From NCBI GenBank assembly GCA_902613185.1, contig CACMGP010000001.1:558001-622000 (forward strand): DNA of 64,000 nucleotides, in the 5' to 3' direction. The notes below the pieces were generated by a model. That model did no database searches. It worked only from the letters and a program-made list of their open reading frames with translations, and had not been told where the DNA came from. A program made the translations under genes and the position numbers. Shown here one piece after another: positions 7,881-56,340 of this stretch (positions within the stretch are counted from its first letter, which is position 1; every line of letters begins with the position of its first letter). The stretch comes from an uncultured Alphaproteobacteria bacterium (GTDB lineage: Bacteria; Pseudomonadota; Alphaproteobacteria; HIMB59).

Positions 7881-7900
7881 GCCCGTATTGAGTCCCTAAA
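7881..7900. repeat. 11-bp-spaced repeat pair, site a
   Basis: GCCCGTATT at 7881 and GTCCCTAAA at 7892 form an imperfect direct repeat with an 11-bp period, 7 bp upstream of the lyase start and 54 bp before the tRNA-Arg fragment. It resembles tyrosine-integrase arm-type sites and the four similar pairs elsewhere in the window. A regulatory role for the lyase gene is the alternative. Confidence 0.5.
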
Positions 7901-7953
7901 AACATTGTATTAAATTTTATTATTAATAAAAAGAGTATATAAATCAAGCTATT

Positions 7954-7992
7954 GGTTCTGTGGTGAAACGGATATCACACTTGACTACGGAT
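7954..7992 (+). repeat. 5'-half copy of tRNA-Arg(ACG), probable attachment-site duplicate
   Basis: Thirty-nine bases are identical to the first 39 bases of the intact tRNA-Arg(ACG) at 9412, from the first acceptor base through the anticodon loop, then the match stops abruptly. Flanking sequence differs on both sides. It cannot form a tRNA. The pattern fits a att-site duplication left by site-specific integration on the 5' side of the tRNA gene. Confidence 0.85.
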
Positions 7993-8062
7993 ATCCTACG
8001 TCTCTTTAATTCATTTATTATCAATACTATTCTTTGAGCTTTAACAACATTTTATCTATGTT

Positions 8063-8083
8063 GCCCGTAATAAGCCCGTAATG
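8063..8083. repeat. 11-bp-spaced repeat pair, site b
   Basis: GCCCGTAAT at 8063 recurs perfectly at 8074, an 11-bp period. It lies 70 bp inside the left boundary of the mini-island, where an arm-type integrase site would be expected, and 23 bp beyond the end of the cupin gene. Confidence 0.55.
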
Positions 8084-8106
8084 AAAATATAGCTAAAAAT
8101 TTAGTT

Positions 8107-8538
8107 TTAAGGAGAGGTTGTAAATTTTATACCCTCTGCACCAATGCCCACTATCAGCGCTTTGAGTGTTATGTCACCTAAATTTTTTCCGTAATGAGCA
8201 CTTTTACTATCCTCTATATATGCTTTACCAGGTTTGTAAATAGTAACTGTTCCGTCTTCCCAAGTATATGTCATCTCTCCTTCCATAATGTAAATATAAA
8301 CAGGGTAAGAATGAACATGGTTTGGAGTTTCACCACCAGGAGGCACCTCAACTATAAATGACACTATTTCAGCTTTTCCATCAGGATAATATATTTCATT
8401 TCCTAATATTGTAGTTGCAGATTTTAGAACAGGGGAAATTTTAGTTTTGAGATGTTCCTCAGAATGTAAAAATCCAAAACTAAATAGAAAAATTGAAAAA
8501 AGAAATATAAACCTAAATTTTTTAGTATAAATATACAT
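8107..8538 (-). CDS. Exported single-domain cupin
   Basis: This 143-residue protein has an N-terminal hydrophobic signal segment and one cupin domain. Cupin motif 1 is in VPPGGETPNHVHSYPVYIYI and EGEMTY, with two His and a later Glu as metal ligands. Motif 2 is PGKAYIEDSKSAHYGKN, with the final His. Small periplasmic cupins of this type bind a divalent metal, but the substrate is unknown. It lies within the tRNA-Arg-bounded mini-island, so it is probably cargo. The start chosen gives a basic N-region before the hydrophobic core. Confidence 0.8.
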   Translation of the reverse strand: MYIYTKKFRFIFLFSIFLFSFGFLHSEEHLKTKISPVLKSATTILGNEIYYPDGKAEIVSFIVEVPPGGETPNHVHSYPVYIYIMEGEMTYTWEDGTVTIYKPGKAYIEDSKSAHYGKNLGDITLKALIVGIGAEGIKFTTSP

Positions 8539-8674
8539 ATAAACTCTTATAACATCTAAAAAAATATTATTTATTGCAAATGAGTAATATATATATTTAA
8601 AAAAAGAAATAATACTCTTAACAAGTAATTATTATAATCATTTATTTTATAAATTTTAGAAAAGGAGATTAACA

Positions 8675-9079
8675 ATGCTTGGTGATAAAATTGGAACAAT
8701 GACATTACAGGAAACTAATAAGCCAATGGACTCTGGTAAATATGGTTTACCTGCTATGGACATTACTGCTGAAGGGAGCGGAACGATGCTAGGTCATGAT
8801 GTTCAGTCTATGGGCGCATTTACAGCCGAAATGAGACCAGATGGTTCATGGGCAGGAAATGCCTATGCTGGGGTTGTAATGTGTGCAGAAGGTGTCGCCA
8901 CATATAAAGCTACGGGTGTCGGAAACCAGAGGAAAGATGGAGGCACTTCTTTTAGAGGCGGCGCTATATTCGAAACCACATCTGAAGCGTTATCTGAACT
9001 GAATGGTAAATTTTACGCATTTACTTACGAAGCCGATGCAGATGGCAAAGCAGTTTGGGAACTTTACCCCTTTAACTAG
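8675..9079 (+). CDS. Unrecognised 134-residue protein, likely acquired
   Basis: It has a strong ribosome binding site (AAGGAG, 8 bases before ATG), unlike most neighbours. The product lacks a signal peptide and is rich in Gly and short beta-strand-like stretches (ITAEGSGTMLGHDVQS, MRPDGSWAGNAYAG, GGTSFRGGAIFETTS), suggesting an all-beta barrel such as a lipocalin- or DUF3224-like fold; I cannot name the family with confidence. The coding sequence is visibly richer in G and C than its surroundings, with many GGC, GCC and GCG codons. Together with its place inside the tRNA-bounded island, this indicates horizontal acquisition. Two hairpins follow the stop. Confidence 0.7.
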   Translation: MLGDKIGTMTLQETNKPMDSGKYGLPAMDITAEGSGTMLGHDVQSMGAFTAEMRPDGSWAGNAYAGVVMCAEGVATYKATGVGNQRKDGGTSFRGGAIFETTSEALSELNGKFYAFTYEADADGKAVWELYPFN

Positions 9080-9139
9080 AGGTTTGAAGATTTCACACCT
9101 CTGCACTACTAAGGAGGGAAACACAACGTTGTTCCCTCC
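9078..9139 (+). terminator. Tandem hairpins after the 134-residue gene
   Basis: The first hairpin pairs AGAGGT (9078) with ACCTCT (9097), with extra inner TGAA/TTCA pairing. The second pairs GGAGGGAA (9113) with TTCCCTCC (9132). Neither has a proper U-tract, so termination is plausible but not certain; they may be other folded RNA. The stretch 9140-9411 holds the integrase remnant, repeat site c and then nothing else I can identify. Confidence 0.45.
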
Positions 9140-9169
9140 CCCCGACAAACAACCTCTACTGATTAATCC

Positions 9170-9316
9170 CTTTTGTTCGCTAATGTAAGCCCTTGCTTCC
9201 CGCATATATTGAAAAGCTCGGGAATATCTTTGTCCCTTCATGTTCACCTATGCTTGAAATAAGACATAGCGATTGCCCTTTACATCTTTCATCTTTCGTC
9301 TAGTTATTGTTCCCAT
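9170..9316 (-). pseudogene. Decayed N-terminus of a tyrosine integrase
   Basis: Reading from the ATG at 9316, the frame gives MGTITRRKMKDVKGNRYVL, the common beginning of phage-type integrases (MGTI-x-R/K-R-K-x-K-D). An in-frame TAG (9248-9250) interrupts it. After the stop the frame continues as MKGQRYSRAFQYMREARAY, which looks like the K-G-x-R-x-S-x-x-F-x-x-x-R-E-A-x-A-W region of the arm-binding domain. The catalytic core is gone. It points away from tRNA-Arg(ACG), 96 bp away, with repeat site c between them, the normal geometry for an integrase gene next to its attachment site. Confidence 0.65.
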
Positions 9317-9337
9317 TATATCCCTTCTTCATTCGTT

Positions 9338-9358
9338 GCCCGTAATGGCTCCGTAATG
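9338..9358. repeat. 11-bp-spaced repeat pair, site c
   Basis: CCGTAATG occurs at 9340 and 9351, with GC/GCT extensions, an 11-bp period. It sits about 22 bp upstream of the integrase-remnant start and 54 bp before tRNA-Arg(ACG). It is nearly the same sequence as site b at the other end of the mini-island. Confidence 0.6.
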
Positions 9359-9411
9359 AGTTTCGTAGGATTAAGTACAACGATTGAATTATGGTGATAT
9401 ACTTAGATTAA

Positions 9412-9486
9412 GGTTCTGTGGTGAAACGGATATCACACTTGACTACGGATCAAGAATTCAGGGTTCGAATCCTTGCAGAACCGCCA
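9412..9486 (+). tRNA. tRNA-Arg(ACG)
   Basis: A complete cloverleaf. The acceptor GGTTCTG pairs with CAGAACC. The D arm contains GGTGAAACGGATATCAC. The anticodon stem CTTGA/TCAAG holds the loop CTACGGA (anticodon ACG). The T arm is AGGGTTCGAATCCTT. The discriminator G is followed by an encoded CCA. ACG is the inosine-modified arginine isoacceptor. It is the target of the adjacent mini-island; its 5' half is duplicated at 7954. Confidence 0.97.
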
Positions 9487-9488
9487 TT

Positions 9489-10319
9489 TTAAATTTTTAA
9501 ATTATCAATGAGTCTAATTTTGCCTTTATAGATTGCATAAAAAAGTCTCGACTCAGAAACTTTACCATTGAAACTTAGGTCCTCATTATTTCTAAATTCG
9601 AAGTAATCAAATTCTTCAATATCTTGTTCAACAATAAAATCTTTAGCTTTTTGGTTTGCAGTATTAATATCAAATGATTTTTCTAAAGTTTTTAGAAAAT
9701 TTTCTACTTTTTGATGAAAACTAACAAAATCTTGTATTTGTTTTTTACTTAATTTTTCATTTCTCGATGAATAGGCAATACCTTCTTCATTTCTTTTTGT
9801 TGGTACAGATACTATTTTTAAAGATTTATATTTTTCTTGAATAAATTTTTCAATTATCTTGAACTGCTGAAAATCTTTTTCACCAAAATAAACTTTATTA
9901 CTTTTTACAATTGAAAAAAATTTATTTAGTACAGTGATTACACCATCAAAGTGTCCTTTTCTAAATTTATCACAAAGAATATTATTAAAGTAAGTATTTT
10001 TTAAAATAGTTTCATCTTTGTTGTAAATTTCTTCTGCTGATGGTTCAAATAAAAGATCTACGTCGTTGTCAGAACAAAAATCGTAGTCAAGGCCTTTATT
10101 CCTGGGATAAGAGTTAAAATCTTCTTTACTGTTAAATTGTTTTTCATTTACAAAAATACTTACAATAGTTTTGTGATTATCATTTTTTGATTTTTTTATC
10201 AATTCTCCATGTCCTTTATGAAGAGCGCCCATAGTGGGAACAAAACCAATTGAGTATTTTCGATTTTGATAAGCTGTCAAATATGACTGTAAATTAGAAA
10301 TGTCTTTAATTATCAACAT
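9489..10319 (-). CDS. panC: Pantothenate synthetase
   Basis: This 276-residue cytoplasmic enzyme joins pantoate and beta-alanine using ATP, the last step of vitamin B5 synthesis. The ATP-binding HIGH-type motif is FVPTMGALHKGH (near 27-38). YFGEKDFQQ and the KMSKS-like SSRNEKLS are also present, and the length is normal. The loop usually written FVNPTQF reads FVNEKQF here, an unusual change close to the pantoate site. panB is not adjacent. It converges on the tRNA-Arg(ACG) gene. Confidence 0.94.
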   Translation of the reverse strand: MLIIKDISNLQSYLTAYQNRKYSIGFVPTMGALHKGHGELIKKSKNDNHKTIVSIFVNEKQFNSKEDFNSYPRNKGLDYDFCSDNDVDLLFEPSAEEIYNKDETILKNTYFNNILCDKFRKGHFDGVITVLNKFFSIVKSNKVYFGEKDFQQFKIIEKFIQEKYKSLKIVSVPTKRNEEGIAYSSRNEKLSKKQIQDFVSFHQKVENFLKTLEKSFDINTANQKAKDFIVEQDIEEFDYFEFRNNEDLSFNGKVSESRLFYAIYKGKIRLIDNLKI

Positions 10320-10392
10320 AATTTGTTTTTATTTATTGACTTCATATCAATAATTGTTAAATGTAGGAACCAATTTTTTAGGTGTATTAGCA

Positions 10393-10527
10393 ATGAAAAG
10401 AACATATCAACCAAGTCAATTAGTTAGAAAAAGAAGGCATGGATTTCGTTCTAGAATGTCAACTGTTGGTGGTCGCAAAGTCATTAATGCAAGAAGAGCT
10501 AAAGGTCGATCTAGACTATCTGCTTAA
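10393..10527 (+). CDS. rpmH: 50S ribosomal protein L34
   Basis: The 44-residue basic protein begins [19 protein letters not shown] and ends with the R/K-rich GRSRLSA tail of L34. It is a structural component of the large subunit that binds 23S rRNA. It heads the conserved rpmH-rnpA-yidD-yidC-engB cluster, with rnpA starting 3 bp after its stop. It lies divergent from panC. Confidence 0.97.
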
Positions 10528-10530
10528 TTA

Positions 10531-10860
10531 TTGAGACTTCCTACACTAAAAAAATCCTCCCAGTTTTCACAAGTCAGAAACAAAGGGAACTATTTCAAAA
10601 GTTTAAGTTTTAACGGCTATATTCTTCATGATGCAGATTTAGAAACTTTTCTAGTTGGTATTATAGCTAGTAAAAAGCTTGGTAATGCTGTGGAAAGAAA
10701 TAGGGCTAAAAGAAGAGCTAGAGAGGCAATACGCACATGCAGTCTTATAAATACATTAAATCATGTAAAATTTGTAATTATACTCAAAAAAACAGTTTTG
10801 AAAGTACCTTTTATTGATTTAAAACAAGATATTGAAAAATTCTTATCTCATGAAAAATAA
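10531..10860 (+). CDS. rnpA: Ribonuclease P protein component
   Basis: This 109-residue basic protein binds RNase P RNA and helps 5' maturation of tRNAs. The signature [16 protein letters not shown] (about residues 50-65) is the RNR motif that contacts the catalytic RNA. It starts with TTG, 3 bp after rpmH; no ATG is available near the conserved N-terminus ([10 protein letters not shown]). Its end overlaps the start of yidD by 11 bp. Confidence 0.94.
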
Positions 10861-11086
10861 TATTAAAAAGTTTTGGAAAATAACTTTTATTGCACCGATT
10901 AAATTCTACCAATTATTCATATCACCTATGTTGCCAAAAACTTGTAGACATCTTCCAACATGCTCTGAATATACAATTGAGGCTATTCAAGAATTTGGTG
11001 TTTTAAAAGGAATAACAATGGGAATAGTTAGAATTCTAAAATGTAATCCGTTAGGTTCATCTGGTTACGACCCAATAAAAAAATAA
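10850..11086 (+). CDS. yidD: Membrane protein insertion efficiency factor
   Basis: This protein of about 78 residues carries the YidD pattern: [20 protein letters not shown] followed by [12 protein letters not shown] and a C-terminal [12 protein letters not shown]. YidD is a small inner-membrane-associated protein that assists YidC-dependent insertion. The ATG at 10850 is chosen over one 18 bases upstream because it begins the usual short basic leader ([10 protein letters not shown]). It overlaps rnpA and is followed by yidC after 1 bp. Confidence 0.93.
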
Positions 11087-11087
11087 T

Positions 11088-12776
11088 ATGGAAAATCAAA
11101 AGAACTTATTCCTAGCTATTATTATTTCAATGGCAATTATTTTTGGTTTTCAGTTACTAGTGCCTCAACCAGAGAGAACACCAATGACTGAAGAACAAAC
11201 AAATGATGAAAGTCTTGTTGATCTCAGTATTCAAAAATCTTCAACTACTGTTTTAGCTGATAGAGTGGAAGTAATAAATCAGACAGGTAGAGTGAACTTT
11301 GATAACTCTAAAATTAAAGGCTCTATTAATTTAAATGGAGCAGTAATTGATGATCTAACCTTAGAAGAATTCAGGGAGACACTAGATCCAACATCTGACT
11401 TAATTGAATTTTTGAATCCTTTAGGATCTGATAATGCCTATTATTTAGATACAGGTTGGGTAAGCTCTGACAGTACAATTGAGTTACCTAATAGTTCTAG
11501 TATTTGGATTGCTGATAAAAACACTATTGGTGTTAATGAACCTGTAAAACTGACTTGGACTAGTGATCAGAACATCACTTTTGAAAAGATCATAACTCTA
11601 GATGAAAACTATTTATTTAGCGTTGATCAAAGAGTTATAAATAATTCAGGTCTTTCTTTTGACCTATATCCCTACGGATTATCCAAAAGACAAGGAATTC
11701 CAGAGATGCAAAATTTCTTCATCCTTCATGAGGGTCCCCTGTCAATCACTGATGGAGTATTGGAAGAATATGATTATGACGATTTAAAAGACGATAAAAA
11801 AATTAAACATTCTTCTGTTGGAGGATGGATTGGGATGACAGATAAGTATTGGCAAACTGCAATAATCCCTAACCAAAACGAACCTGTTCAGCAGACATAC
11901 AGTTACAGCTTTGTTGATAATATAGATAATTTTCAAACTGATATTGTTGGGGAAAGAATAGCTGTTTCAAATAATACGAGTATCTCCCATAATTTTAAAA
12001 TTTTTGCGGGACCAAAAATTGTAAATATTATCGACAAATATATGGAAGAATATGGGTTTGACGGTTTTGATCGCTCTGTAGATTTTGGTTGGTTTTATTT
12101 TTTAACAAAACCCATTTTTAATGTTTTAGAATTTATATACGGGTATGTAGGAAACTTTGGTTGGTCAATAATTCTGTTTACAGTTTTGATGAGAATTTGT
12201 TTTTTTCCACTTGCTCAACAATCGTTTAAATCAATGGCAAAAATGAAAAAACTTGCTCCTGAGATGCAAAGACTTAAGGAACAATACGGAGATGATAGAG
12301 CTGGAATGCAAAAAGAAATGATGGCTTTATATAAAAGAGAAAAGGCAAATCCTATAGCTGGTTGTTTACCAATACTTTTGCAAATACCAGTTTTCTTTGC
12401 CTTGTATAAAGTTTTATTTGTAACTATTGAAATGAGACATGCACCTTTTATAGGATGGGTGCACGATCTCTCTGCACCTGATCCCTTAGGTGCTCTTACT
12501 CTTTTTGGATTTGTGGAATGGAATGTTCCAGGTATTTTGCAAATCCTAAATGTTGGTATTTGGCCAATTTTAATGGGTATTTCGATGTATATTCAATTTA
12601 AACTGAATCCAGCTCCGGTGGATAAAATGCAGGCAAAAATTTTTGGTTTATTGCCAATAGTATTTACTTTCATTTTAGGTGGCTTCGCAGCAGGGCTGGT
12701 TATTTATTGGACAACTAACAATGTTTTATCAATGGCTCAACAATACATCATACAAAGAAAAATTATGAAGAGTTAA
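11088..12776 (+). CDS. yidC: Membrane protein insertase
   Basis: This 562-residue Oxa1-type insertase inserts and folds inner-membrane proteins alone or with SecYEG. It has an N-terminal membrane anchor (about 5-25) and a large periplasmic beta-super-sandwich domain. The conserved core starts near residue 340 with GWSIILFTVLMRICFFPLAQ and the coiled cytoplasmic loop with KMKKLAPEMQRLKEQYGDD. Later membrane segments end in YWTTNNVLSMAQQ. Length and domain order are those of Gram-negative YidC. Its last base is shared with the engB start. Confidence 0.97.
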   Translation: MENQKNLFLAIIISMAIIFGFQLLVPQPERTPMTEEQTNDESLVDLSIQKSSTTVLADRVEVINQTGRVNFDNSKIKGSINLNGAVIDDLTLEEFRETLDPTSDLIEFLNPLGSDNAYYLDTGWVSSDSTIELPNSSSIWIADKNTIGVNEPVKLTWTSDQNITFEKIITLDENYLFSVDQRVINNSGLSFDLYPYGLSKRQGIPEMQNFFILHEGPLSITDGVLEEYDYDDLKDDKKIKHSSVGGWIGMTDKYWQTAIIPNQNEPVQQTYSYSFVDNIDNFQTDIVGERIAVSNNTSISHNFKIFAGPKIVNIIDKYMEEYGFDGFDRSVDFGWFYFLTKPIFNVLEFIYGYVGNFGWSIILFTVLMRICFFPLAQQSFKSMAKMKKLAPEMQRLKEQYGDDRAGMQKEMMALYKREKANPIAGCLPILLQIPVFFALYKVLFVTIEMRHAPFIGWVHDLSAPDPLGALTLFGFVEWNVPGILQILNVGIWPILMGISMYIQFKLNPAPVDKMQAKIFGLLPIVFTFILGGFAAGLVIYWTTNNVLSMAQQYIIQRKIMKS

Positions 12777-13351
12777 TGAGCCTTGTCTCAAATTATTTCA
12801 AAAAACAAACTAAGTTTTTACTAAGCGCTACACAACCTCGTCAATATCCTAATGTAAGTTTTCCTGAAATAGCTTTCATAGGTAGGTCAAATGTTGGAAA
12901 ATCTAGTTTAATCAATGCAGTTTTTATGAAAAAACTAGCGCATATTTCTAATACTCCTGGTAAAACAAGACAAATTAATTTTTTTAATCACGGGGACTCA
13001 ATGATGGTTGTTGATCTTCCTGGGTATGGATATGCAAAAATATCTCAAAAGGAGGCAATTCAGATATCAGATCTTGTCTCTCAATATTTAACATCTCGTG
13101 AAAATTTAAAGAAAATATTTGTATTAATTGATAATTCATTGGGGCCAAAAAAAATAGACATAGAAATGATAGACTCGATGAAACAAATAAAACAAAAAAT
13201 TATTATTTGTTATACAAAAAGTGACAAAAAAATAAAAGAAAAGTCGGCTTTTTTAGACAATTTAAATACTGAATTTGAAAACTACATTGTAAGTTCAAAA
13301 ACAAATGAAAATATATTTGAAATTCAAAAAAAAATTTTTGAATTTTTATAA
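12776..13351 (+). CDS. engB: Ribosome biogenesis GTPase YihA/EngB
   Basis: This 191-residue TrmE-Era-type GTPase needed for 50S assembly has G1 GRSNVGKSS, the G2 region TPGKTRQINFF, G3 VDLPGYGYA and G4 TKSDK, in normal spacing. The start overlaps the yidC stop (TAATG type), indicating coupling. The 3' part is strikingly rich in AAA and AAT codons, as expected for this genome. Confidence 0.95.
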   Translation: MSLVSNYFKKQTKFLLSATQPRQYPNVSFPEIAFIGRSNVGKSSLINAVFMKKLAHISNTPGKTRQINFFNHGDSMMVVDLPGYGYAKISQKEAIQISDLVSQYLTSRENLKKIFVLIDNSLGPKKIDIEMIDSMKQIKQKIIICYTKSDKKIKEKSAFLDNLNTEFENYIVSSKTNENIFEIQKKIFEFL

Positions 13352-13394
13352 ATCTTCTTGGATTTTACATAATAAACATTAGTTTAACACGCTT

Positions 13395-14078
13395 ATGAAT
13401 AATATAACAAATTGGGTTTTTGACTTAGACAATACACTTTATAAAGCGGAGTGTGGTTTATTTGATAAAGTACACATACTTATGGGTAAGTTTATTGAGG
13501 AAAAATTAAACTTAAATTCTGGAGATGCACAAGCTTTAAGATCTAAATATTATCATCAATACGGAACAACACTCAGAGGTCTTATGATTGAACATCAAGT
13601 AAATCCTAATGAATATTTGGACTACGTTCATCAAATTAATTATGAAGTAGTTCAACCAAATACAACTCTTGCGGAAATATTAAAAAGCTTAAATGGAAAA
13701 AAGTATATTTTTACAAATGCTAATTTTGAACATGTGGAAAAAGTTTTAGAAAAACTTCATATGACTAATATTTTTGATGGATGTTTTGACATTTCTGAAA
13801 GTGACTATATGCCAAAACCTCACAAAGAAGTTTACGACTCATTCCAAAATAAATTCAATTTAGACAATAGTTCAACAGCTATGTTTGAGGATCTTCATAT
13901 TAATTTGAAAGAGCCACATAAAATGGGTTGGCAGACAGTTTGGGTAACGAATAACCTTGAATACAACCTAAATAAGGATGTCAATCAGCAAGGAGATATT
14001 CAAAAAATAATTGATGAAAAAGGCTACATATCACACGTTACTGATGATTTGGAAAAATTCTTAAAAAACGTGATATAA
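13395..14078 (+). CDS. HAD-family pyrimidine 5'-nucleotidase-like phosphatase
   Basis: The 227-residue protein has HAD motif I in [10 protein letters not shown], motif II in FTNAN, motif III Lys in [13 protein letters not shown] and motif IV in [15 protein letters not shown]. The pattern and the spacing after motif I match the SDT1/pyrimidine 5'-nucleotidase subgroup (TIGR01993), which dephosphorylates UMP/CMP-type substrates in the cytoplasm. In Alphaproteobacteria this gene often sits next to dapD, as here, where dapD begins 7 bp later. Confidence 0.85.
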
Positions 14079-14085
14079 GAGTATT

Positions 14086-14916
14086 ATGAGCAATCAAGAT
14101 ATAATTGAGAAATTATGGGATCAAAGAGATCAGATTAACTTTATTGAGGATAGTGAAGCAAAAAAAAATGTTAAGAGTGTTCTTAACTTATTAGATGAAG
14201 GAAAGCTTCGAGTATGCGAAAAAAAAGAAAATGATTGGCATGTAAATCAATGGCTTAAAAAAGCAATTCTTTTAAGTTTTAGAATTCAAGATATGGAAAT
14301 TATAACTGGCGGTCCGAGTGTAAAAGACGGGTCTACTTCATGGTGGGATAAAGTTCCCTCAAAATTCCAAGATTGGAAATCAGAAAATTTTCAATCAGCT
14401 GGTTTTAGAGCTGTCCCAAACTGTGTTGTAAGGAGATCAGCATTTATTGCAAAAAGTGCAGTTCTTATGCCTTGCTTTGTTAATTTGGGTGCATATGTAG
14501 ATGAAGGAACTATGGTTGATACTTGGGCTACTGTTGGATCTTGTGCTCAAGTTGGAAAAAACTGTCATATCTCAGGTGGTGCAGGTATAGGAGGAGTCTT
14601 AGAGCCTTTGCAGGCAAATCCAGTTATAATAGAGGATAATTGTTTTATTGGTGCGAGATCAGAAGTCGCCGAGGGTGTAATTGTCGGAGAGGGATCAGTA
14701 TTATCCATGGGGGTATTTATTGGTGCTTCAACAAAAATTTATAATCGTGAAACTAAAGAAATTTATATGGGGAAAGTTCCTCCATATTCTGTAGTCGTTC
14801 CGGGTAGTCTTCCAAGTTCTAAAGGAGATGCATCATTGTACTGTGTTGTGATTGTAAAAACGGTTGATGAAAAAACTCGTTCAAAAACCTCCGTTAATGA
14901 ATTATTAAGAGATTAA
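14086..14916 (+). CDS. dapD: Tetrahydrodipicolinate N-succinyltransferase
   Basis: This 276-residue trimeric enzyme of the succinylase branch of lysine/diaminopimelate synthesis transfers succinyl from succinyl-CoA to tetrahydrodipicolinate. The N-terminal helical domain is followed by left-handed beta-helix hexapeptide repeats (from [17 protein letters not shown] through [13 protein letters not shown] and [18 protein letters not shown]), with the C-terminal SLPSSKG. It is followed 1 bp later by dapE, the next-but-one enzyme of the pathway. Confidence 0.97.
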
Positions 14917-14917
14917 A

Positions 14918-45185: not shown

Positions 45186-45186
45186 A

Positions 45187-46110: not shown

Positions 46111-46145
46111 TCAATATACTCTCTTTCATATGTTTATTGTCTATA

Positions 46146-46151: not shown

Positions 46152-46159
46152 CTGCTGCT

Positions 46160-48060: not shown

Positions 48061-48068
48061 TGAAATAA

Positions 48069-48093
48069 TCACCCCCGAATATTTCGGGGATGA
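48069..48093. terminator. Hairpin between dctM and dctP
   Basis: CCCCGAA (48073-48079) pairs perfectly with TTCGGGG (48083-48089) with a 3-base loop and flanking TCA/TGA pairing. It lies between two convergent genes and is probably a bidirectional terminator, though the following U-tract is weak. Confidence 0.65.
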
Positions 48094-48109
48094 TATTAAT
48101 ATTATGAAT

Positions 48110-49237: not shown

Positions 49238-49270
49238 AAATATTCCCCTCCTAAATTAAGAAATAATTAA

Positions 49271-50161
49271 TTATTTTTTATTAGCTATCATTATACCAAC
49301 AATCACAGATAAAATTCCAGCGTAATGATAACTCTGTAATGTTTCTTGAAAGACTAAATATGCAAGAATTCCACCAAAAATAGGCATTAAGTGGAGAAAA
49401 GGGCCTGATTTATTTGGTCCAATTAAAGCCACTCCAGTATTCCAACAAATATATGACAAGATGCTAGGAAAAGTTCCGGTATAGCCAATTACTAATAAGG
49501 TTTTGTGGTCAAATGTTATGAAATTATTTTGAATTATTATGTCATATAAATAAACAGGTAGGAGTAATATTACTGTAAATACGAATGATAAATATAAAAA
49601 ACTAAATCCTGAAACACCTGTTTCATTTTTTTTTAGAAATATTGAATATAATGCCCAAGATATAACAGCTAGTAAGATGAATAAATCTCCAGAATAAAAT
49701 TTTGAATCAAATATATTTTGATAGTTACCTTTTGTTATAACATAACTAACACCAATAAGAGATAAAATGACACCTAACATTTGAAACAAGTTTGTTTGAT
49801 TTTTATAAATCAATTTGTTTAAAAGGATTATCAACATGGGGGTTGTCGAAATAACTAATAAAGAATTAATAACAGTTGTTGCTGTTAAACCAATATAAGT
49901 TAAAGTATTAAAAAGCGTCGGACCAGTTAGGATTATCAAAAAAACCATTCCTGGTTGTTTTTTTAAAAGTGGTAAATCAACTAGAGCATTTTTTAAACAA
50001 AAGGGAGTTAAAATAATTAAAGCAATTACCCATCTGTAAAAAGATAACGATAGAGGTGATACTAATTCCTCAACTGAGGACAATCTTCCTACTATAAAAT
50101 TGCCTGACCAAAATAAGGAGGCAAAGCATAAAAATATGGCTGCTTTAAGAGAAACACTCAC
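49271..50161 (-). CDS. DMT/EamA-family exporter
   Basis: The 296-residue membrane protein has ten hydrophobic helices in two EamA repeats: FASLFWSGNFIVGRLSS and FYRWVIALI in the first, then ISWALYSIFLKK and LLVIGYTGTFPSILSYICWN in the second. Substrate unknown. It lies 9 bp after the thiolase on the same strand, so it may be part of the acetoacetate operon, perhaps only by read-through. Confidence 0.87.
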   Translation of the reverse strand: MSVSLKAAIFLCFASLFWSGNFIVGRLSSVEELVSPLSLSFYRWVIALIILTPFCLKNALVDLPLLKKQPGMVFLIILTGPTLFNTLTYIGLTATTVINSLLVISTTPMLIILLNKLIYKNQTNLFQMLGVILSLIGVSYVITKGNYQNIFDSKFYSGDLFILLAVISWALYSIFLKKNETGVSGFSFLYLSFVFTVILLLPVYLYDIIIQNNFITFDHKTLLVIGYTGTFPSILSYICWNTGVALIGPNKSGPFLHLMPIFGGILAYLVFQETLQSYHYAGILSVIVGIMIANKK

Positions 50162-50170
50162 TATGATTTT

Positions 50171-51322
50171 TTATTTTAAATTTTCAATAGCAATTGCTAG
50201 ACCTTGACCACCGCCAATACACATACTAGCAACACCAAACTTTTGTTTTGTCCTTCTGAGTTGATGAGACAAAGTTGTAATAATTCTTGCACCAGAACAA
50301 CCAATGGGGTGCCCTAATGCAATAGCGCCTCCAGCAATATTTAATTTATTTGGATCAATCTTTAAAGATCTTTGGACTGCAACTGAAGTTGCAGCAAACG
50401 CCTCATTGACCTCAACCAAATTAAAATAGTTAATATTTACACTCATTTTCTTCATTAATTTCTGTATAGCTGTAATTGGAGTAACACCCATATAATCAGG
50501 ATTGCCCGCCGAGGACGCCCAAGATAGTACTTTTGCTATTGGTTTAATTTTGTTTGAAGTTACATATTTTTCAGAAGCTAAAGCCAAAAAACTAGCTCCA
50601 TCATTTAATGAAGAAGCATTTCCAGCAGTGACTGTTCCAGATTTTTTAAAAACAGCTTTTAATTGGCTTAATTTTGGCAAAGTAGTGTCTTTTCGAACTT
50701 CATCTTTAAGTGGTGTTTTTATCAGTTCGTTTTTGAAGTAATTATTTTTAATTGCCTTATAAGTTTTTAGATAAGACTGATAAGCAAATTGATCTTGGTC
50801 TTGTCTTGAAACATTATATTTTCTTGAAACGTTTTCAGCTGTTATACCCATATGTTCTTTTGAAAAAGCATCAGTTAATCCATCATTAACTAAAGTGTCT
50901 ATAAAGATATTATTACCTAATTTTTTTTCTCCAGTTCTACTTAGGTATGCATGGCGTGCTCTTGACATACTTTCTTGACCACCAACGATTAATAAATTTG
51001 ACTCTCCGGAATAAATTTTAGATGAGCCATCGATTGTAGCTCTCATACCGCTTCCACAAACTTGATTTACCACATAAGCAAAGGATGTCTGTTGCATTCC
51101 GGAACCTAGTGCAACTTGCCTTGCTGTATTCATTCCTAGTCCGCTAGTTAATACTTGTCCTAAAATTAATCCTTCAACTTCTTTAGTATTGATTATTTGA
51201 TTTCTATCAAATAATTCTTTGAGACAAGAGGTTCCTAGTTCTACTGATTCAGTTTTTTTGTAATTACCTAAATAAGCTCCTATTGGTGTTCTAACTGCAT
51301 CGATTATAAAAACATCACTCAT
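50171..51322 (-). CDS. Acetyl-CoA C-acetyltransferase (thiolase)
   Basis: The 383-residue type II thiolase has the nucleophilic Cys in NQVCGSGMRA, the catalytic His in ALGHPIGCSGARII, and the C-terminal Cys in SMCIGGGQGLA. It reversibly cleaves acetoacetyl-CoA to two acetyl-CoA. Next to acetoacetyl-CoA synthetase, the cleavage direction is likely, so acetoacetate would enter central metabolism. There is no phaB, which argues against a polyhydroxybutyrate operon. It overlaps the synthetase end by 8 bp. Confidence 0.94.
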   Translation of the reverse strand: MSDVFIIDAVRTPIGAYLGNYKKTESVELGTSCLKELFDRNQIINTKEVEGLILGQVLTSGLGMNTARQVALGSGMQQTSFAYVVNQVCGSGMRATIDGSSKIYSGESNLLIVGGQESMSRARHAYLSRTGEKKLGNNIFIDTLVNDGLTDAFSKEHMGITAENVSRKYNVSRQDQDQFAYQSYLKTYKAIKNNYFKNELIKTPLKDEVRKDTTLPKLSQLKAVFKKSGTVTAGNASSLNDGASFLALASEKYVTSNKIKPIAKVLSWASSAGNPDYMGVTPITAIQKLMKKMSVNINYFNLVEVNEAFAATSVAVQRSLKIDPNKLNIAGGAIALGHPIGCSGARIITTLSHQLRRTKQKFGVASMCIGGGQGLAIAIENLK

Positions 51323-53231
51323 TAATATTTATCTTTCTGTATTCAATTACTGACTCAGGATTTGCCAACGATCCCAAGTTCTGCACTTTATCATTATTGA
51401 TAATTTTTTTGACAAGTATTTCAGAGTTTTTACCACTTTTTGTTCTTGGAATGTCTTTAACTATAAATATTTTCCAAGGAACATGCCTTGGACTAAGCGA
51501 TGTCTTGAGGTGTTTTTTCAATATTGTATTAAAATCAACATTAATTTTTGTGTTTAACAACTTCAAAAAAAGGACAATTTTTTCATCATTTTTAGTCAAA
51601 TAACCTGTTGCCAAACAGTCCTCGATCCAATGAAATTTTTGTAAGCAACTGTATATTTCACCTGTTCCTATTCTGACACCGCCTGGATTTAAAGTAGCAT
51701 CTGATCTTCCAAAGATTACATAACCTCCATTTTTTGTTTTTTTTACATAATCTCCATGAGACCATATGTTTGGAAATTTTTTAAAATATGCTGATTTATA
51801 CTTATTATTTAATCTGTCATTCCAAAAGTAGATAGGCTTAGAGGGGAAAGGGGTCTTGCAAACTAGCTCTCCTGTCTTTTTGGTTGGCTTACCATTATCA
51901 TTGAAAACATCAATATCCATGCCCAAGCCCGGTCCTTGAATTTCACCTGAATAGACAGGTAAAGTTGGTATACCTAACATAAAACATGAAACTATATCTG
52001 TTCCACCGCTAACTGAATGTATAAAAGATTTTGAATTTAAACTTTTATTAATAAACTTAAAAGTGTCTGGACTTAGAGGAGAGCCAGTTGATATAAAACA
52101 ATTAATTTTTTTTAAAATATCTTTTTTATTAGATTTATAATTATTTTGGATAGTTTCATAAACTTTTGCTCCCGCACCTAGCATTGTTGAATTAGTATCT
52201 TTTGTAATATTGATAACTCGATTTATATTTGGATAAAATGGGGAGCCATCATAAAGAACGATTGAAGAACCTAAAAGTAAATTTGAAACTGTCCAGTTCC
52301 ACATCATCCACCCGCAAGTAGTTAAGAAAAGCATTTTATCTTCAGATTTGACATTTGTGTGTAATGCTAATTCTTTTAAATGTTGCAGGAGTGAGCCACC
52401 ATGGCCGTGTGTAATACACTTGGGAAGCCCTGTAGTTCCACTAGAAAATAAAACATATAGCGGATGATTAAAACTCAATGATATATTTTTATTTGGTTTT
52501 GAATATTTTTTTTGATTGTAAATTTTTTTTAATTCAGATGTGTTATTTTTTGAAGGATAGCTAGTTTTTAAAATTAGTGGATTATTTAAATTTGCTTTTA
52601 ATGTTCTTAAGTTTTTTGAATATTGAAATTTCTTACCGTTATAAAAATAATAGTCAGCAACAATTAAAAGCTTAGGCTTAAGCTGGGAAAATCTGTCAAT
52701 CACAGCTTGTGTCCCAAAGTCAGCAGAGCAAGAAGACCAAACTGCACCAATTTTTGCTGCAGAAAGGAAGCTTATTACTGTATCAGGTATATTTGGCAGA
52801 TATCCGACAATTACATCACCTTTTTTTATGCCTTTATCTCTAAAGAAATTGCTTAATGCATTAACTCTTTTATTTAAATCACTATAAATAATTTTTTCGC
52901 TGAATTTGTTTTCTCCAATAAATTCAATGGCCAAATCTGATGAATTATTTTTAAAAATTAAATTATAATAATTGAGATTACTGTTATCAAAAAAAATTGA
53001 ATTCCAAAAAGATTTTTTTTTGTAAGCTTTAAAAAATCTTTTCCTCTCAAGATCGATATTAAAATACTCAACTATAGACTCCCAAAACTCACCAGGATTC
53101 TTATTAGTCCATAACCAAAGCTTGTTATAATTTAAGAATTTCTTAGAAAATTTTTGTTCTAAATATGTCTGAAATTTATAAAGGTTAGTAGTTTTAATAA
53201 ATTTTCTACTTGGCTCAAATAACTTATCCAT
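51315..53231 (-). CDS. Acetoacetyl-CoA synthetase
   Basis: The 638-residue ANL-superfamily ligase activates acetoacetate with ATP and CoA. The N-terminal helical part includes YNKLWLWTNKNPGEFWESI. The adenylation motifs are VLFSSGTTGLPKCITHGHGG, SVSGGTDIVSC and GYVIFGRSDATLNPGGVRIG, and the C-terminal Lys is in PRTKSGK. Length and the ACOAS N-terminal region match AACS rather than acetyl-CoA synthetase. It overlaps the upstream thioesterase by 8 bp and the downstream thiolase by 8 bp. Confidence 0.92.
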   Translation of the reverse strand: MDKLFEPSRKFIKTTNLYKFQTYLEQKFSKKFLNYNKLWLWTNKNPGEFWESIVEYFNIDLERKRFFKAYKKKSFWNSIFFDNSNLNYYNLIFKNNSSDLAIEFIGENKFSEKIIYSDLNKRVNALSNFFRDKGIKKGDVIVGYLPNIPDTVISFLSAAKIGAVWSSCSADFGTQAVIDRFSQLKPKLLIVADYYFYNGKKFQYSKNLRTLKANLNNPLILKTSYPSKNNTSELKKIYNQKKYSKPNKNISLSFNHPLYVLFSSGTTGLPKCITHGHGGSLLQHLKELALHTNVKSEDKMLFLTTCGWMMWNWTVSNLLLGSSIVLYDGSPFYPNINRVINITKDTNSTMLGAGAKVYETIQNNYKSNKKDILKKINCFISTGSPLSPDTFKFINKSLNSKSFIHSVSGGTDIVSCFMLGIPTLPVYSGEIQGPGLGMDIDVFNDNGKPTKKTGELVCKTPFPSKPIYFWNDRLNNKYKSAYFKKFPNIWSHGDYVKKTKNGGYVIFGRSDATLNPGGVRIGTGEIYSCLQKFHWIEDCLATGYLTKNDEKIVLFLKLLNTKINVDFNTILKKHLKTSLSPRHVPWKIFIVKDIPRTKSGKNSEILVKKIINNDKVQNLGSLANPESVIEYRKININE

Positions 53232-53622
53232 CTTTGTTTTTCATTAATCGTTGAAGGTCATCTGGTATTTTACTTGGAGCCCCTTGAGAATTGACGCAAA
53301 CCATCAAAATTTTTGATTTAAAAATAATATTATTTTGTTTGTAAATATTTTGTTCGAGCTTAAATGATGCATTTTTAAGAGACAAAATATTGCTTTTAAC
53401 AGTTAATTGATCCTCTAGTTTGCATGACTCAATATAATCACATTCGATCTTTTTTACTAAAAAAAGTCGATCATGATCTTTCAATAAAGAATTAAGTGTA
53501 AATCCCAACTCATTGATGATTTCAGTACGGGCTCTTTCAATAAATTTTAAATAATTTGCGTAATATACAACTCCACCAGAGTCTGTGTCTTCATAATATA
53601 TTTTGAAGTTGTATTGGAACAT
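53224..53622 (-). CDS. YbgC-like hotdog acyl-CoA thioesterase
   Basis: The 132-residue hotdog-fold protein has the YbgC active-site motif YYEDTDSGGVVYYANYLKF, containing the catalytic Asp, followed by FIERARTEIINELG. It hydrolyses short-chain or other acyl-CoA thioesters. In many Proteobacteria YbgC belongs to the tol-pal operon; here it heads an acetoacetate-activation operon instead. Its ATG overlaps the stop of a 26-codon frame (TAATG). Confidence 0.92.
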   Translation of the reverse strand: MFQYNFKIYYEDTDSGGVVYYANYLKFIERARTEIINELGFTLNSLLKDHDRLFLVKKIECDYIESCKLEDQLTVKSNILSLKNASFKLEQNIYKQNNIIFKSKILMVCVNSQGAPSKIPDDLQRLMKNKDG

Positions 53623-53702
53623 TAAGTAGTCAGACCTAAATACAATATATAAGTTATAATAATTATAACTATTCCAAATATTAAATATCTATATTCATTC
53701 AT
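53622..53702 (-). CDS. 26-residue membrane peptide coupled to the thioesterase
   Basis: A frame of 26 codons encodes a single hydrophobic helix after a polar start (MNEYRYLIFG, then isoleucine-rich). Its TAA shares bases with the ATG of the YbgC-like gene. The reading could be a leader peptide or a true small membrane protein; in AT-rich DNA such frames also arise by chance. No family. Confidence 0.35.
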   Translation of the reverse strand: MNEYRYLIFGIVIIIITYILYLGLTT

Positions 53703-53729
53703 TAAATTAAATACCTATTATAGAAATAC

Positions 53730-53945
53730 TTAAGATATTTTTTCTCTCTTAAAATAATAAATCATTTTGTGTTTTGAAGGGATATCAGATTTATCCTTAA
53801 TTACATTGACCAACTCCCAACCTTCTTTTCCACCTTTATTAAGCCAGTCATTTTCCGACTTTAATTCTTCATCATCTAAATATTGGGTATAAATTCTATA
53901 CTCCCACTTTGAATGTTCTTTTTTATCAAAAGTTGGGTTAATCAT
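53730..53945 (-). CDS. DUF4177-like small protein
   Basis: The 71-residue soluble protein has W-E-Y-R-I-Y at its N-terminal strand and LNKGGKEGWELVNVI in the middle, then a YYFKRE C-terminal strand. W-E-Y, L-N-x-x-G-x-E-G-W-E-L-V and F-K-R are the marks of the DUF4177 family of unknown function. It follows a 78-residue membrane-protein gene by 11 bp on the same strand. Confidence 0.7.
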   Translation of the reverse strand: MINPTFDKKEHSKWEYRIYTQYLDDEELKSENDWLNKGGKEGWELVNVIKDKSDIPSKHKMIYYFKREKIS

Positions 53946-53956
53946 TTCTTTATAAC

Positions 53957-54193
53957 TTACGCATTTAAATTATAGAAAAACCATACTGCAGATAAACACC
54001 AAAGTGTTAAAAAAATCTTACCTAGTTTATCTGCCTTTTTAAAATGTGATTTCATTTCATTAAGCTGAGCTACATTTTGTCCGTCTTGTTTTTGAGAGTC
54101 CTTTAATTTTTTTTGGTAAAAGAATTTGTATATATTTATTGCACAAGTCCATCCTGTTAGTATGTAAAAAATAGAGCTAGATAAAGTTGTCAT
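53957..54193 (-). CDS. Hypothetical two-helix membrane protein
   Basis: The 78-residue protein has hydrophobic segments at about residues 5-25 and 58-75, separated by a charged linker (KKLKDSQKQDGQNVAQLNEM). No family recognised. It lies between the DUF4177-like gene and a polysaccharide-lyase-like gene, all on the minus strand, and may share their transcript. Confidence 0.5.
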   Translation of the reverse strand: MTTLSSSIFYILTGWTCAINIYKFFYQKKLKDSQKQDGQNVAQLNEMKSHFKKADKLGKIFLTLWCLSAVWFFYNLNA

Positions 54194-54234
54194 CTTTCTA
54201 ATATAAACCTACTCCATAGTTCTTGCTAGTTTTA

Positions 54235-55164
54235 TCAATCTTTATATTGGATAAAAGTAGGTTTTATAACCTGATTATCTTTATCCCCTAAAGAGTCACA
54301 TGAGTATCCCAAGTTAGATAATAATTCAGAAAAATTTTTATCAGTGCATTTTTTTGCTCTGGCAATTCCATCATACCAAGCTGTGATTTTACCGTTAAAA
54401 ACTTTTGGCGCATTATTTTGGTATATACCATATCGAAAAGAAGGTCCGTAAGATTTTCCATTGTAAGAATAAATATTAGTTATAAATCCCTCCTCAGCAT
54501 ATTTTAAATCACCATTTATATATAGTTTTAGAAATCCATCATTGCCCCAACTTGCATGAATAATTACATCATGCCATTGGTTAAATAAAATATTTTCTGG
54601 AATTACCGTTGCAGTCTCATCAGTCTCTACAACAGTTTTTTTTGTACAGTGCGTTCTATTAATGGCTAACCCTTTATATTTCTTCTTATATTGAAATATG
54701 AAAACATTTTCAGAACCATTATCTCTGCAGTGTGAAAAAACTTTATTTTCATATGATAATTTCATTTGTCCAAATTGAATTAAATGATTGTCAATTTCTT
54801 TATGAGAAGTTGACGAATAAGTAAGCTCAGAATTGTCTATAAAAAATGACCATGCATACCAATTTTCTCCTCTCTCTTTTGTATTTATATAAGTCTCAGT
54901 TCTTCCAAAAGAACCTTCAAATTTTCCCCTTTCACAATCAAAGTCTTTACAATCAAGTGCTCTAAACTCAAATTTGTGTGATGACTCACCAAGTCTTGAA
55001 AATTCAGTATCGATGCTTTGACTCCAATCTTTACCAGCATCTAATCCATGTTTTTCAATAGTTGGCCAACCAATACCCTTGTAACTTCCAACTTGTTCTC
55101 CATTTTTAAATGTTAAGCCCCAACACAAATTAGGAATAATTAACAACAAGATTAAGAGAGTTTT
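54235..55164 (-). CDS. Secreted polysaccharide lyase-like protein (PF14099-like), copy 2
   Basis: This protein of about 309 residues starts at MKTLLILLLIIPNLCWG, a signal peptide almost identical to that of copy 3. The longer frame to 55206 would place 14 odd residues before it. The jelly-roll domain has KFEFRALDCKDFDCERGKFE, ENWYAWSFFID, FNQWHDVIIHASWGNDGFLK, LYINGDLKYAEEG and FRYGIY, the last strands matching copies 1 and 3. Cys pairs suggest an oxidising location. Repeat site d lies 25 bp upstream of the ATG. Substrate unknown. Confidence 0.72.
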   Translation of the reverse strand, partial: KTLLILLLIIPNLCWGLTFKNGEQVGSYKGIGWPTIEKHGLDAGKDWSQSIDTEFSRLGESSHKFEFRALDCKDFDCERGKFEGSFGRTETYINTKERGENWYAWSFFIDNSELTYSSTSHKEIDNHLIQFGQMKLSYENKVFSHCRDNGSENVFIFQYKKKYKGLAINRTHCTKKTVVETDETATVIPENILFNQWHDVIIHASWGNDGFLKLYINGDLKYAEEGFITNIYSYNGKSYGPSFRYGIYQNNAPKVFNGKITAWYDGIARAKKCTDKNFSELLSNLGYSCDSLGDKDNQVIKPTFIQYKD

Positions 55165-55188
55165 CATTAATAAAGTTATATCTTTAGT

Positions 55189-55208
55189 GTCCCATATTTG
55201 TCCCATAT
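55189..55208. repeat. 11-bp-spaced repeat pair, site d
   Basis: GTCCCATAT at 55189 recurs perfectly at 55200, an 11-bp period. About 40 bases from the lyase ATG through this pair are nearly the same as those upstream of copy 3, showing that gene and upstream region were duplicated together. Confidence 0.55.
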
Positions 55209-55239
55209 AATTTTAATAGCAATAGGGTTAAGAGTGTTT

Positions 55240-56298
55240 TCATTTTTCTTTTGCCTTCTCATATTCTAGTTTTCTTAAATTCTTCTTTAAATCATTAATT
55301 TTTTTTGATTTTTCTATGTCATAATTTTCAACAACTTCTTTTTTAAGTTTTGTAATCTTTTCTTCAATAAATTTAATTTCCTCATCAAGAAGTTCAATTG
55401 TACTTTTTTTGTAGAGATATTCTTGCTCACCTAACTGACTAAGATTTGAGTTAACCTCATCTTTAGTTTTGCCTATTCTAATCTCATCAAAGTAAACAAC
55501 TGTAGTGCCACCATCAGAGCCCGTTTCCCATGTATGTTCCAGCCAGTTTCTATAAATTCCAAATTTAAAGTTTGCTCTAATATTTTTATCCCATAATGTT
55601 TTGCCACTATAATCATAAATCAAATCACCATTTGCCCATATTTTATAATAACCATCATTTTTGTACGACCAATTTACGTGCATTAATATGTCATTCCATC
55701 TTCCAATCATATCTGTCTTAGATAAAGACAGGCCTATTTCTTTATTAATATTATTAGAAGGTGTGTATGAACCATCTTTCGCCTCAAAGCTAAAATGTTG
55801 GTCAGGGAAAACATCATCAGGCTTACTGTGAAATTGCAGAAGTTTAAGACTAGACCTTGGATGTAATTCAGTAAATTCAGGTTGTAAATAAATTGACCAT
55901 GCATACCACATCTCTCCTTTGCCCCATTCGTTAATAGAAGCTATTTCAGCTCTTTCAGATTTTCCGTTATTTCTATTACAGTCATTAATTTTACCTTTAC
56001 CCCCACATTCACCTGGTCTTACTTCAAATCTAATACTTAGATTACCATCTCTTACAGGGTGTCCCTCATCTTTAGAAACTACTTGTATTTGATGTTTTAG
56101 ACCTAAGACTCTTGAGCTAAGTCTCCATTCGCTCACTCCAGAGGAAACGTCCAACGGAAGGGTAAAATTTTTTTTACTAAGAGTGTATTTTTCAGAGATA
56201 GACTCAGTTAAGCCATCATTGACCTGCTTTCCATCTTTAAATGTTAATCCCCAACTCAAACTAGGGATTAATAACAACAAGGTTAAAAGAGTCTTCAT
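55240..56298 (-). CDS. Secreted polysaccharide lyase-like protein (PF14099-like), copy 3
   Basis: The 352-residue protein has a signal peptide ending SLSWG. The domain has LSIRFEVRPGECGGKG, a basic SERAEIAS segment, EMWYAWSIYLQPEF, LKLLQFHSKPDD, RWNDILMHVNWSYKNDGYYK, IWANGDLIYDYSG and FKFGIYRNWL, a good match to heparin-lyase-like PF14099. A C-terminal Lys/Glu coiled coil of about 50 residues is absent from the other copies. It sits 92 bp from tRNA-Arg(TCG), with repeat site e between. Confidence 0.75.
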   Translation of the reverse strand: MKTLLTLLLLIPSLSWGLTFKDGKQVNDGLTESISEKYTLSKKNFTLPLDVSSGVSEWRLSSRVLGLKHQIQVVSKDEGHPVRDGNLSIRFEVRPGECGGKGKINDCNRNNGKSERAEIASINEWGKGEMWYAWSIYLQPEFTELHPRSSLKLLQFHSKPDDVFPDQHFSFEAKDGSYTPSNNINKEIGLSLSKTDMIGRWNDILMHVNWSYKNDGYYKIWANGDLIYDYSGKTLWDKNIRANFKFGIYRNWLEHTWETGSDGGTTVVYFDEIRIGKTKDEVNSNLSQLGEQEYLYKKSTIELLDEEIKFIEEKITKLKKEVVENYDIEKSKKINDLKKNLRKLEYEKAKEK

Positions 56299-56320
56299 TA
56301 ATAAAAATTATATCTTTAGT

Positions 56321-56340
56321 GTCCCATATTTGTCCCTAAA
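56321..56340. repeat. 11-bp-spaced repeat pair, site e
   Basis: GTCCCATAT at 56321 and GTCCCTAAA at 56332 have an 11-bp period, 23 bp upstream of the lyase ATG and 50 bp before tRNA-Arg(TCG). The spacing to gene and tRNA closely parallels site a. Confidence 0.55.

Follow-up and report, generated by a model that had tools for sequence, protein, structure and literature searches.

Cis-mobilizable elements (CIMEs), as described in the part of PMC5704250 available to us, carry no integration or transfer genes, keep both attachment (att) sites, attL and attR, and accumulate by tandem accretion. Here we describe short cassettes that, as far as tested, appear to bear these marks at tRNA-Arg genes of an uncultured alphaproteobacterium of the HIMB59 lineage, starting from a 64,000-nt stretch of its 1.35-Mb genome (11 contigs, 92% complete; positions 558,001 to 622,000 of contig CACMGP010000001.1; hereafter the window). 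The cassettes appear to occupy the 5′ half of the tRNA gene, to lack an integrase gene, and to be bounded by repeat pairs with 11-bp spacing that are best read as arm-type integrase-binding sites; on sequence comparison, we give this reading a probability of roughly 0.8.

The comparisons that follow are with the portions of the cited papers available to us. As in CIMEs, attL and attR are kept (41 cassettes bounded by half-tRNA copies), integration genes are absent, and tandem stacking occurs (PMC5704250). Unlike CIMEs, the cassettes span 0.65–5 kb, often have one cargo gene, often keep both arm pairs, restore the 5′ half of the tRNA, contain a secretion leader in one end, and have no recognised ancestor among integrative and conjugative or integrative and mobilizable elements. 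The additive flexible genomic island of Methylopumilus (PMC10872708; tRNA-fragment repeats, 330 bp–42 kb, mostly unknown proteins) is similar in its streamlined aquatic host and in the use of tRNA-fragment repeats as marks, but its repeat is the last 20 nt of tRNA-Lys, and arm pairs, matched pair types, and a shared leader are features of the cassettes. The ssrA islands of Dehalococcoides include 15 without an integration module between att repeats, considered possible CIMEs there (PMC3146451); those islands use a serine recombinase and a transfer-messenger RNA gene, whereas arm-pair anatomy is a feature of the cassettes. Tycheposons are tRNA-linked, cargo-carrying, 4–200 kb in size, and encode a tyrosine recombinase (via PMC10872708 and PMC11389934), whereas the cassettes have no recombinase gene and measure 0.65–5.0 kb (median 1.46 kb). 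Integron cassettes and CALINs (clusters of attC sites lacking integron-integrases) are integrase-free arrays moved by an integrase in trans (PMC11389934); the ends of the present cassettes are instead half-tRNA cores with arm pairs, and each has its own upstream leader. For HIMB59 itself, the available part of PMC10734472 describes phosphate-related islands without tRNA at their borders, and among the papers listed in literature searches, judged by title and abstract opening, none describes such cassettes in this clade.

Repeat pairs and half-tRNA copies in the window

An earlier note on the window had reported five repeat pairs with an 11-bp period. All five (a–e) are present, each with exact 11-bp spacing. 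The tRNA-Arg(ACG) locus has the following features:

6972..7874, minus strand: PF14099 polysaccharide lyase with signal peptide (Pfam E=3.3e-26), at the predicted integrase-proximal (right) end of an older cassette
7881..7902, plus strand: pair a, GCCCGTATTGA/GTCCC, predicted right arm pair of the older cassette, 73 bp upstream of the half-tRNA copy
7954..7992, plus strand: half-tRNA-Arg(ACG) copy, 39-bp exact, predicted left att copy of the cassette
8063..8084, plus strand: pair b, GCCCGTAATAA/GCCCGTA, predicted left arm pair, +109 from the att copy
8107..8538, minus strand: cupin-domain cargo gene (Cupin_2, E=4.4e-15)
8675..9079, plus strand: 134-aa cargo open reading frame (ORF), no Pfam match
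9152..9316, minus strand: putative integrase remnant, ~55 residues like an integrase N-terminal region, one stop
9338..9359, plus strand: pair c, GCCCGTAATGG/CTCCGTA, predicted right arm pair, 74 bp before tRNA-Arg(ACG)
9412..9486, plus strand: tRNA-Arg(ACG), intact (ARAGORN); 9412–9450 is the predicted right att copy

The 39-bp exact direct repeat (7954–7992 = 9412–9450), which the earlier note had not mentioned, is the 5′ half of tRNA-Arg(ACG), reaching the anticodon loop. Because of this repeat, 7954–9411 can be read as an integrated cassette with its ends marked by pairs b and c, and pair a as the right end of an older neighbouring cassette, the left end of which is not seen. The cupin gene is also the sole cargo of 0.65-kb cassettes in relatives, and the 134-aa ORF goes together with the integrase remnant in 12 cassettes. 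Derivation of the remnant from an integrase is weakly supported by its N-terminal pattern and by weak similarity to the start of one intact integrase (E=0.04). A search of 385 genomes of the class with the remnant found just three copies, all in the same genus and including its own. In empty sites of relatives (L116, L117, and L122), the Ion_trans channel gene (window 6189–6971) lies 49 bp from tRNA-Arg(ACG). In the window, the stop of the lyase gene 6972..7874 directly adjoins the Ion_trans gene, an arrangement that deletion of the left cassette end would produce.

The tRNA-Arg(TCG) locus has the following features:

54235..55167, minus strand: PF14099 lyase II, signal peptide MKTLLILLLIIPNLCWG, Pfam above cut-off
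55189..55204, plus strand: pair d, GTCCCATATTT/GTCCC, apparently a displaced right-end block (arm pair, leader, and signal-peptide start) without an adjoining att core
55217..55244, minus strand: truncated start of a signal peptide, remaining at the junction upstream of pair d
55240..56298, minus strand: PF14099 lyase I, signal peptide MKTLLTLLLLIPSLSWG, Pfam above cut-off
56321..56336, plus strand: pair e, GTCCCATATTT/GTCCC, predicted right arm pair, 70 bp before tRNA-Arg(TCG)
56391..56465, plus strand: tRNA-Arg(TCG) (ARAGORN), predicted target of a second cassette family

No half-tRNA copy was found in a search of this locus, and pair e is therefore read as a right end with no left counterpart in view. 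The pair d block is a right-end copy inserted in the second of the two lyase genes of a cassette; it is absent in L143 and L149, and looks like the product of homologous exchange within the signal peptide.

Pairs a, d, and e precede confirmed PF14099 genes, in line with the earlier placement of three pairs at lyase start codons. The pair-to-ATG distance is 6 bp for pair a and 21–22 bp for pairs d and e (23–25 bp in the earlier note); pair c is 21 bp from the MGTIT-type start of the integrase remnant, close to the ~22 bp given before. The claim that all pairs lie beside tRNA-Arg needs correction for d, which is 1.2 kb from the tRNA.

The loose motif GYCC-N7-GYCC, taken alone, is a poor discriminator, with 18 matches in the genome of the window and 8 for the reversed control. 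The specific forms are more informative. GYCCGTA-N4-GYCCGTA has 21 matches in 15 of 162 genomes of the order, 20 at ACG loci and 1 at a TCG locus (reversed control, 1); GTCCCATATTTGTCCC has 17 matches in 12 of the 162 (control, 0), 16 in mapped TCG loci and the remaining one, in G022, adjoining a half-tRNA(TCG) copy. Neither form has a match outside the genus among these 162 genomes. The specific pairs are thus confined to tRNA-Arg loci, rather than occurring away from tRNA genes, an outcome that the earlier note had named as fatal to its proposal; chance origin of the pairs is ruled out by the same confinement.

Cassettes across the genus

A tRNA-Arg DNA query matches 48 of the 52 genomes of the genus (own genome included), many with one or two additional half copies upstream. 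For comparison, 39 ACG and 40 TCG loci from relatives were oriented with those of the window, giving 40 ACG and 41 TCG loci; contig-end loci G061:C63 (ACG) and G071:C25 (TCG) were left out, and L135 (G023), which differs from the tRNA at 17 positions and is probably another gene, was kept in the TCG denominator. The relatives are non-independent samples. The same 75 nt of tRNA-Arg(ACG) are intact at 40 of 40 loci, and one or two half-tRNA copies are present at 22 of the 39 ACG loci of relatives.

The comparison reveals 41 cassettes: 31 at 23 of the 40 ACG loci, and 10 at 8 of the 41 TCG loci. Their length is 649–4987 bp (median, 1459), and their plan is a 5′-half-tRNA copy, left pair, cargo, right pair, and then the next half-tRNA or the intact tRNA. 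Two cassettes are stacked in tandem at 8 of 40 ACG loci and 2 of 41 TCG loci. Left pairs lie +109 from the half-tRNA start at ACG loci, about +132 at TCG loci, and +125 in L315; right pairs are at −73/−74 (ACG) or −70 to −72 (TCG). With a strict pair definition and unique ends only, a pair is present at +109 (±8) in 20 of 26 ACG left ends (null windows, 0–1), and at the expected place in 21 of 59 ACG right ends (null, 0–2, and 8 in one window, mostly from a repeat in the chromosomal flank ~218 bp upstream), in 21 of 46 TCG right ends (null, 0–1), and in 4 of 10 TCG left ends. Right-end totals below 100% are expected, because native, never-filled ends are counted in.

Three clearly different motifs occupy the same ACG positions: CCGTA (variants GCCCGTAATGA, CCCGTATACAT, and GGCCGTATAGA), CCGGTA (CCGGTACTCAG), and GTGTGT (GTGTGTTATGA and GTGTGTACTGA). 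The TCG motifs are GTCCCATATTT, TGGCGGAAATT, and TGTCGGAAATT, the latter two being alike. Left and right pairs match within a cassette: mean similarity is 17.4/22 versus 13.4 for permuted pairs, and none of 20000 permutations is as high (P=5e-5; 22 of the 31 ACG cassettes have both pairs, 16 of them unique after near-duplicate removal). Matched types are expected if one protein binds both ends of the element, and are not explained by a gene operator. Inheritance alone, in which a single ancestral insertion was passed on vertically and its function not kept, is in accord with the close relatedness and common flanks of many loci, copies of which are not independent; nevertheless, it is very improbable, because clearly different motifs occupy one ACG position, the left–right match persists after near-duplicate removal, and cargo and array order differ between relatives. 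A further sequence, TT[AC]TCAATA, is retained in 30 of the 31 ACG left ends, which are related sequences; it is near but unequal to the consensus of integration host factor, a bend site for which would lie between core and arm.

Empty and filled sites define the insertion point. When empty L116 and L117 are compared with filled L123 and L113, the upstream flank (94.8–95.7% identical) aligns exactly to tRNA nt 39 and the downstream flank resumes at the intact tRNA, with the insertion between. The two alignments overlap over 37–49 bp upstream of the tRNA; the cassette end therefore resembles the native upstream region of the tRNA. Specifically, GAGTATATAAATCA is directly upstream of the tRNA or half-tRNA in 42 of 71 ACG ends, empty sites included; GTGATATACTTWGATTAA is there in 13 of 71, and neither sequence in 16 of 71. 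These comparisons suggest that the cassettes restore a promoter together with the 5′ half.

Two other ends are observed. At L129, the left end, −1515 from tRNA-Arg(TCG), is a hybrid half-tRNA, with its first nucleotides from the TCG gene and the remainder from the ACG gene; the left pair of this cassette is of the CCGTA type and its right pair is TGGCGGA, as would be seen after insertion of an ACG-type cassette into the TCG gene. L315 (1974–2722, G022) is the left end of a GTCCC-type element, in a contig that ends ~620 bp past the pair.

Cargo proteins include PF14099 lyases, cupin, chalcone-isomerase-like, HNH/HIT, PLD-like, ankyrin, methyltransferase, sulfotransferase-like, and DUF2130 proteins, and many unknowns; no conjugation family was found in the subset of cargo ORFs scanned with Pfam. 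The right-end gene often begins just inside the right pair, at the integrase position of intact relatives. In particular, in a classification of 56 right ends by regular expression, which misses the GCCCGTATTGAGTCCC variant, 18 of the 27 classified TCG ends have the start codon between −90 and −93, behind three pair types, and at ACG loci it is at −79 to −81 behind CCGTA-type pairs, in seven lyase ends and two unrelated proteins. Four or more pair types precede members of one lyase family, and different cargoes follow one and the same pair type.

A common signal peptide opens many right-end proteins. The mature parts of 57 genes with the signal-peptide pattern form 16 families with no BLAST similarity to one another at E 1e-3, yet their signal-peptide DNA has a mean identity between families of 79% (84% in a core set of 12, up to 100%), compared with an average of 46% for four other secreted-like ORFs of the window; the pattern selects similar peptides, yet not identical silent positions. 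A 97-nt right-end query has matches in 46 of the 52 genomes of the genus, mostly via its signal-peptide part. The shared signal-peptide DNA is also present away from tRNA-Arg genes (G000:C2:306723-306770 and relatives), and the leader therefore spreads beyond cassettes.

In relatives L172, L177, L178, and L169, tRNA-Gly(GCC) and tRNA-Thr(GGT) are followed by stretches that contain PF14099 lyases and have copies of the tRNA 3′ half as their boundaries. No 11-bp pair was found in the three tested (L172, L177, and L178). By their layout, these stretches appear to be a second, 3′-side class.

Integrases and the nature of the pairs

A tblastn search with seven integrases found no integrase in any of the 41 cassettes, an integrase-free state absent from the earlier note; the remnant is retained in 12 of the 41. 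Eight integrase-like proteins of relatives all match PF00589 in Pfam, and those of L180, L181, L182, L183, and L187 also match Int_N PF24624, above the curated cut-off in L180 only. A protein search with the L180 integrase gave 35 matches in 27 of the 162 genomes of the order, and we analysed the 30 with loci, 29 of them free of internal stops. The earlier note had suggested looking for intact integrases preceded by the pair, and an 11-bp pair is found no more than 120 nt upstream of the start in 22 of 30 integrase genes, versus 3 of 58 control frames (Fisher P=3e-11; controls are window open frames of at least 120 codons, some of them non-genes). Among these pairs, that of L297 overlaps the start codon and is doubtful, and that of L310 is weak. 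In L290, L292, and L294, extra matches at −82/−83 are the tRNA itself, and the true pair is also present at −33. The motifs vary by group; several groups have TGTCACA in common, and the 30 genes are therefore not independent. A tRNA is in view upstream of 16 of the 30 integrases, and 15 of these 16 (one doubtful) have a pair in the tRNA–integrase interval.

Locus L180, with an intact integrase at tRNA-Ala, has the full plan: a half-tRNA, a left pair at +131, five ORFs, the integrase (ATG at −100 from tRNA-Ala), and a right pair at −76. Similar pairs are found beside integrase genes in L187, L181, and L183. With this plan and the integrase-adjoining pairs, the cassettes look like elements of the L180 kind after loss of the integrase. 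The integrase test and the anatomy of L180 thus favour the earlier proposal of arm-type sites of tRNA-Arg elements, and the idea that lyases occupy the integrase-proximal end is borne out, as lyases sit where intact elements carry the integrase.

At L183 (3190–5449), a tRNA-Gly is flanked by elements on both sides: one has an integrase with TGTCACA pairs, and in the other, TGTCGGA/GTCGGAG pairs and a 3′-half repeat enclose a DUF4268 protein.

The alternative offered in the earlier note, an operator common to the lyase genes, draws on the position of pairs a, d, and e directly upstream of lyase starts and on a promoter-like GGGACA-18-TATAAT (56336–56307) that overlaps pair e. We reject it as extremely improbable, because integrase genes, their remnants, and unrelated cargo also have pairs in front of them, and because pairs occur at left ends (+109/+132), at the far end of the cassette and, in the window, on the downstream side of the cupin gene. 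The pairs are accordingly not limited to lyase genes, the second outcome that the earlier note had named as refuting. A single lyase family stands behind several pair types, as described above; moreover, no GYCC pair is present at the scanned tRNA-Gly and tRNA-Thr lyase loci, and a rescan of L168, L172, L177, and L178 found no 11-bp pair outside the tRNA itself.

A regulatory role added to the arm-site role is possible, in that the pair may overlap a cargo promoter; promoter scans gave 3 promoter-like sites versus 6.6 in shuffles, no excess. In the KplE1 prophage, the integrase promoter overlaps arm-type sites at attL/intS beside a tRNA-Arg, with integrase autoregulation (PMC2951348), and is therefore a precedent for cargo expression from a cassette end; the position of the KplE1 integrase is held in the cassettes by a secreted lyase or other cargo.

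Proposed mobilisation and cargo exchange

Several observations weigh against integrase-free cassettes with arm-type sites. In 9 of the 31 ACG cassettes, one or both sides have a weak pair or none: the right pair is absent from cupin-only cassettes L119 and L120 and from the first cassette of L100, and a single repeat of it is retained in L088 and L098. The left pair is not at the expected place in 6 of 10 TCG cassettes, and ACG lyase starts are non-uniform (−87 behind GTGTGT pairs, −143/−145 behind CCGGTA pairs). Among the 30 integrase genes, 8 have no pair within 120 nt: in three, a pair is at −121 to −123 and alternative starts are closer; in five, there is none. No integrase with GCCCGTA or GTCCC pairs is found in the 162 genomes of the order, the genome of the window has only two PF00589 genes, both of XerC/XerD size, and the remnant matches nothing in Pfam and nothing meaningful among PHROGs. 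Searches of viral contigs with the left-end 22-mer, the remnant, or both half-tRNA cores gave no confirmed trace (the remnant query had 7 pattern matches, zero confirmed), and no phage with the remnant or left-end DNA was found. Distant relatives of the L180 integrase, none reaching 60% identity, occur in 572 phage records, and these name no mobiliser.

The same observations bear on whether the cassettes still move. If they are dead remnants, the pairs and half-tRNAs are fossils, and any present-day shuffling goes back to homologous recombination alone, at tRNA halves, right ends, and signal-peptide sequences; this account agrees on the identity of the arm sites and differs on continued mobilisation. 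It is favoured by the lack of any integrase in 41 cassettes and, beyond two Xer-sized genes, in the genome of the window, by the remnant in 12 cassettes, by the weak or missing pairs, and by the resemblance of site d to exchange inside a signal peptide. Opposed to it are the retention of both pairs, matched within the cassette, in 22 of the 31 ACG cassettes, the base-exact spacing conserved over divergent cargo, and the presence of a cassette in some relatives at a site that is empty in others. We regard dead remnants as unlikely, yet as a serious competitor; continued mobilisation, accordingly, is less sure than the identity of the arm sites.

We propose trans-mobilised, CIME-like cassettes with a promoter and secretion platform as one end, a proposal in which mobilisation and transcription are what we infer. 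A tyrosine integrase would be supplied in trans by another element, phage, or plasmid, would bind the pairs through its N-terminal domain, and would recombine the cores in the tRNA halves. The circular cassette would then insert, and the tRNA would receive from it a 5′ half and an upstream region. The right end would have been turned into a platform for expression and secretion, comprising promoter region, pair, leader, and signal peptide, and secreted cargo, such as the PF14099 lyases, would be exchanged on it, probably by homologous recombination in the signal-peptide sequence. A broader and tentative view, which we hold at somewhat less than even odds, is an integron-like system on tRNA genes: a portable right end (tRNA upstream region and 5′ half, arm pair, promoter and leader, and signal peptide), with arm specificity, leader, and cargo reassorting, and with integrases acting in trans, would let a streamlined ocean bacterium swap secreted lyases and further exported proteins at one constant, expressed location.

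In the census by Islander, 159 of 3919 islands have a 5′ tDNA fragment; the pipeline, in the part of the description available to us, tests for an integrase gene (PMC4383910). The cassettes have no integrase gene; the class is therefore rare in, or hidden from, that census, and island finders that require an integrase, Islander for example, would miss it. The matched 11-bp pairs constitute a barcode for the missing integrase: an integrase with equal pairs is a candidate mobiliser. The near-fixed start codon behind the pair allows a direct test of att ends as cargo promoters. Finally, the cassettes would help to explain how secreted lyases and other exported proteins are exchanged in a streamlined 1.35-Mb marine genome without visible mobile-element genes.

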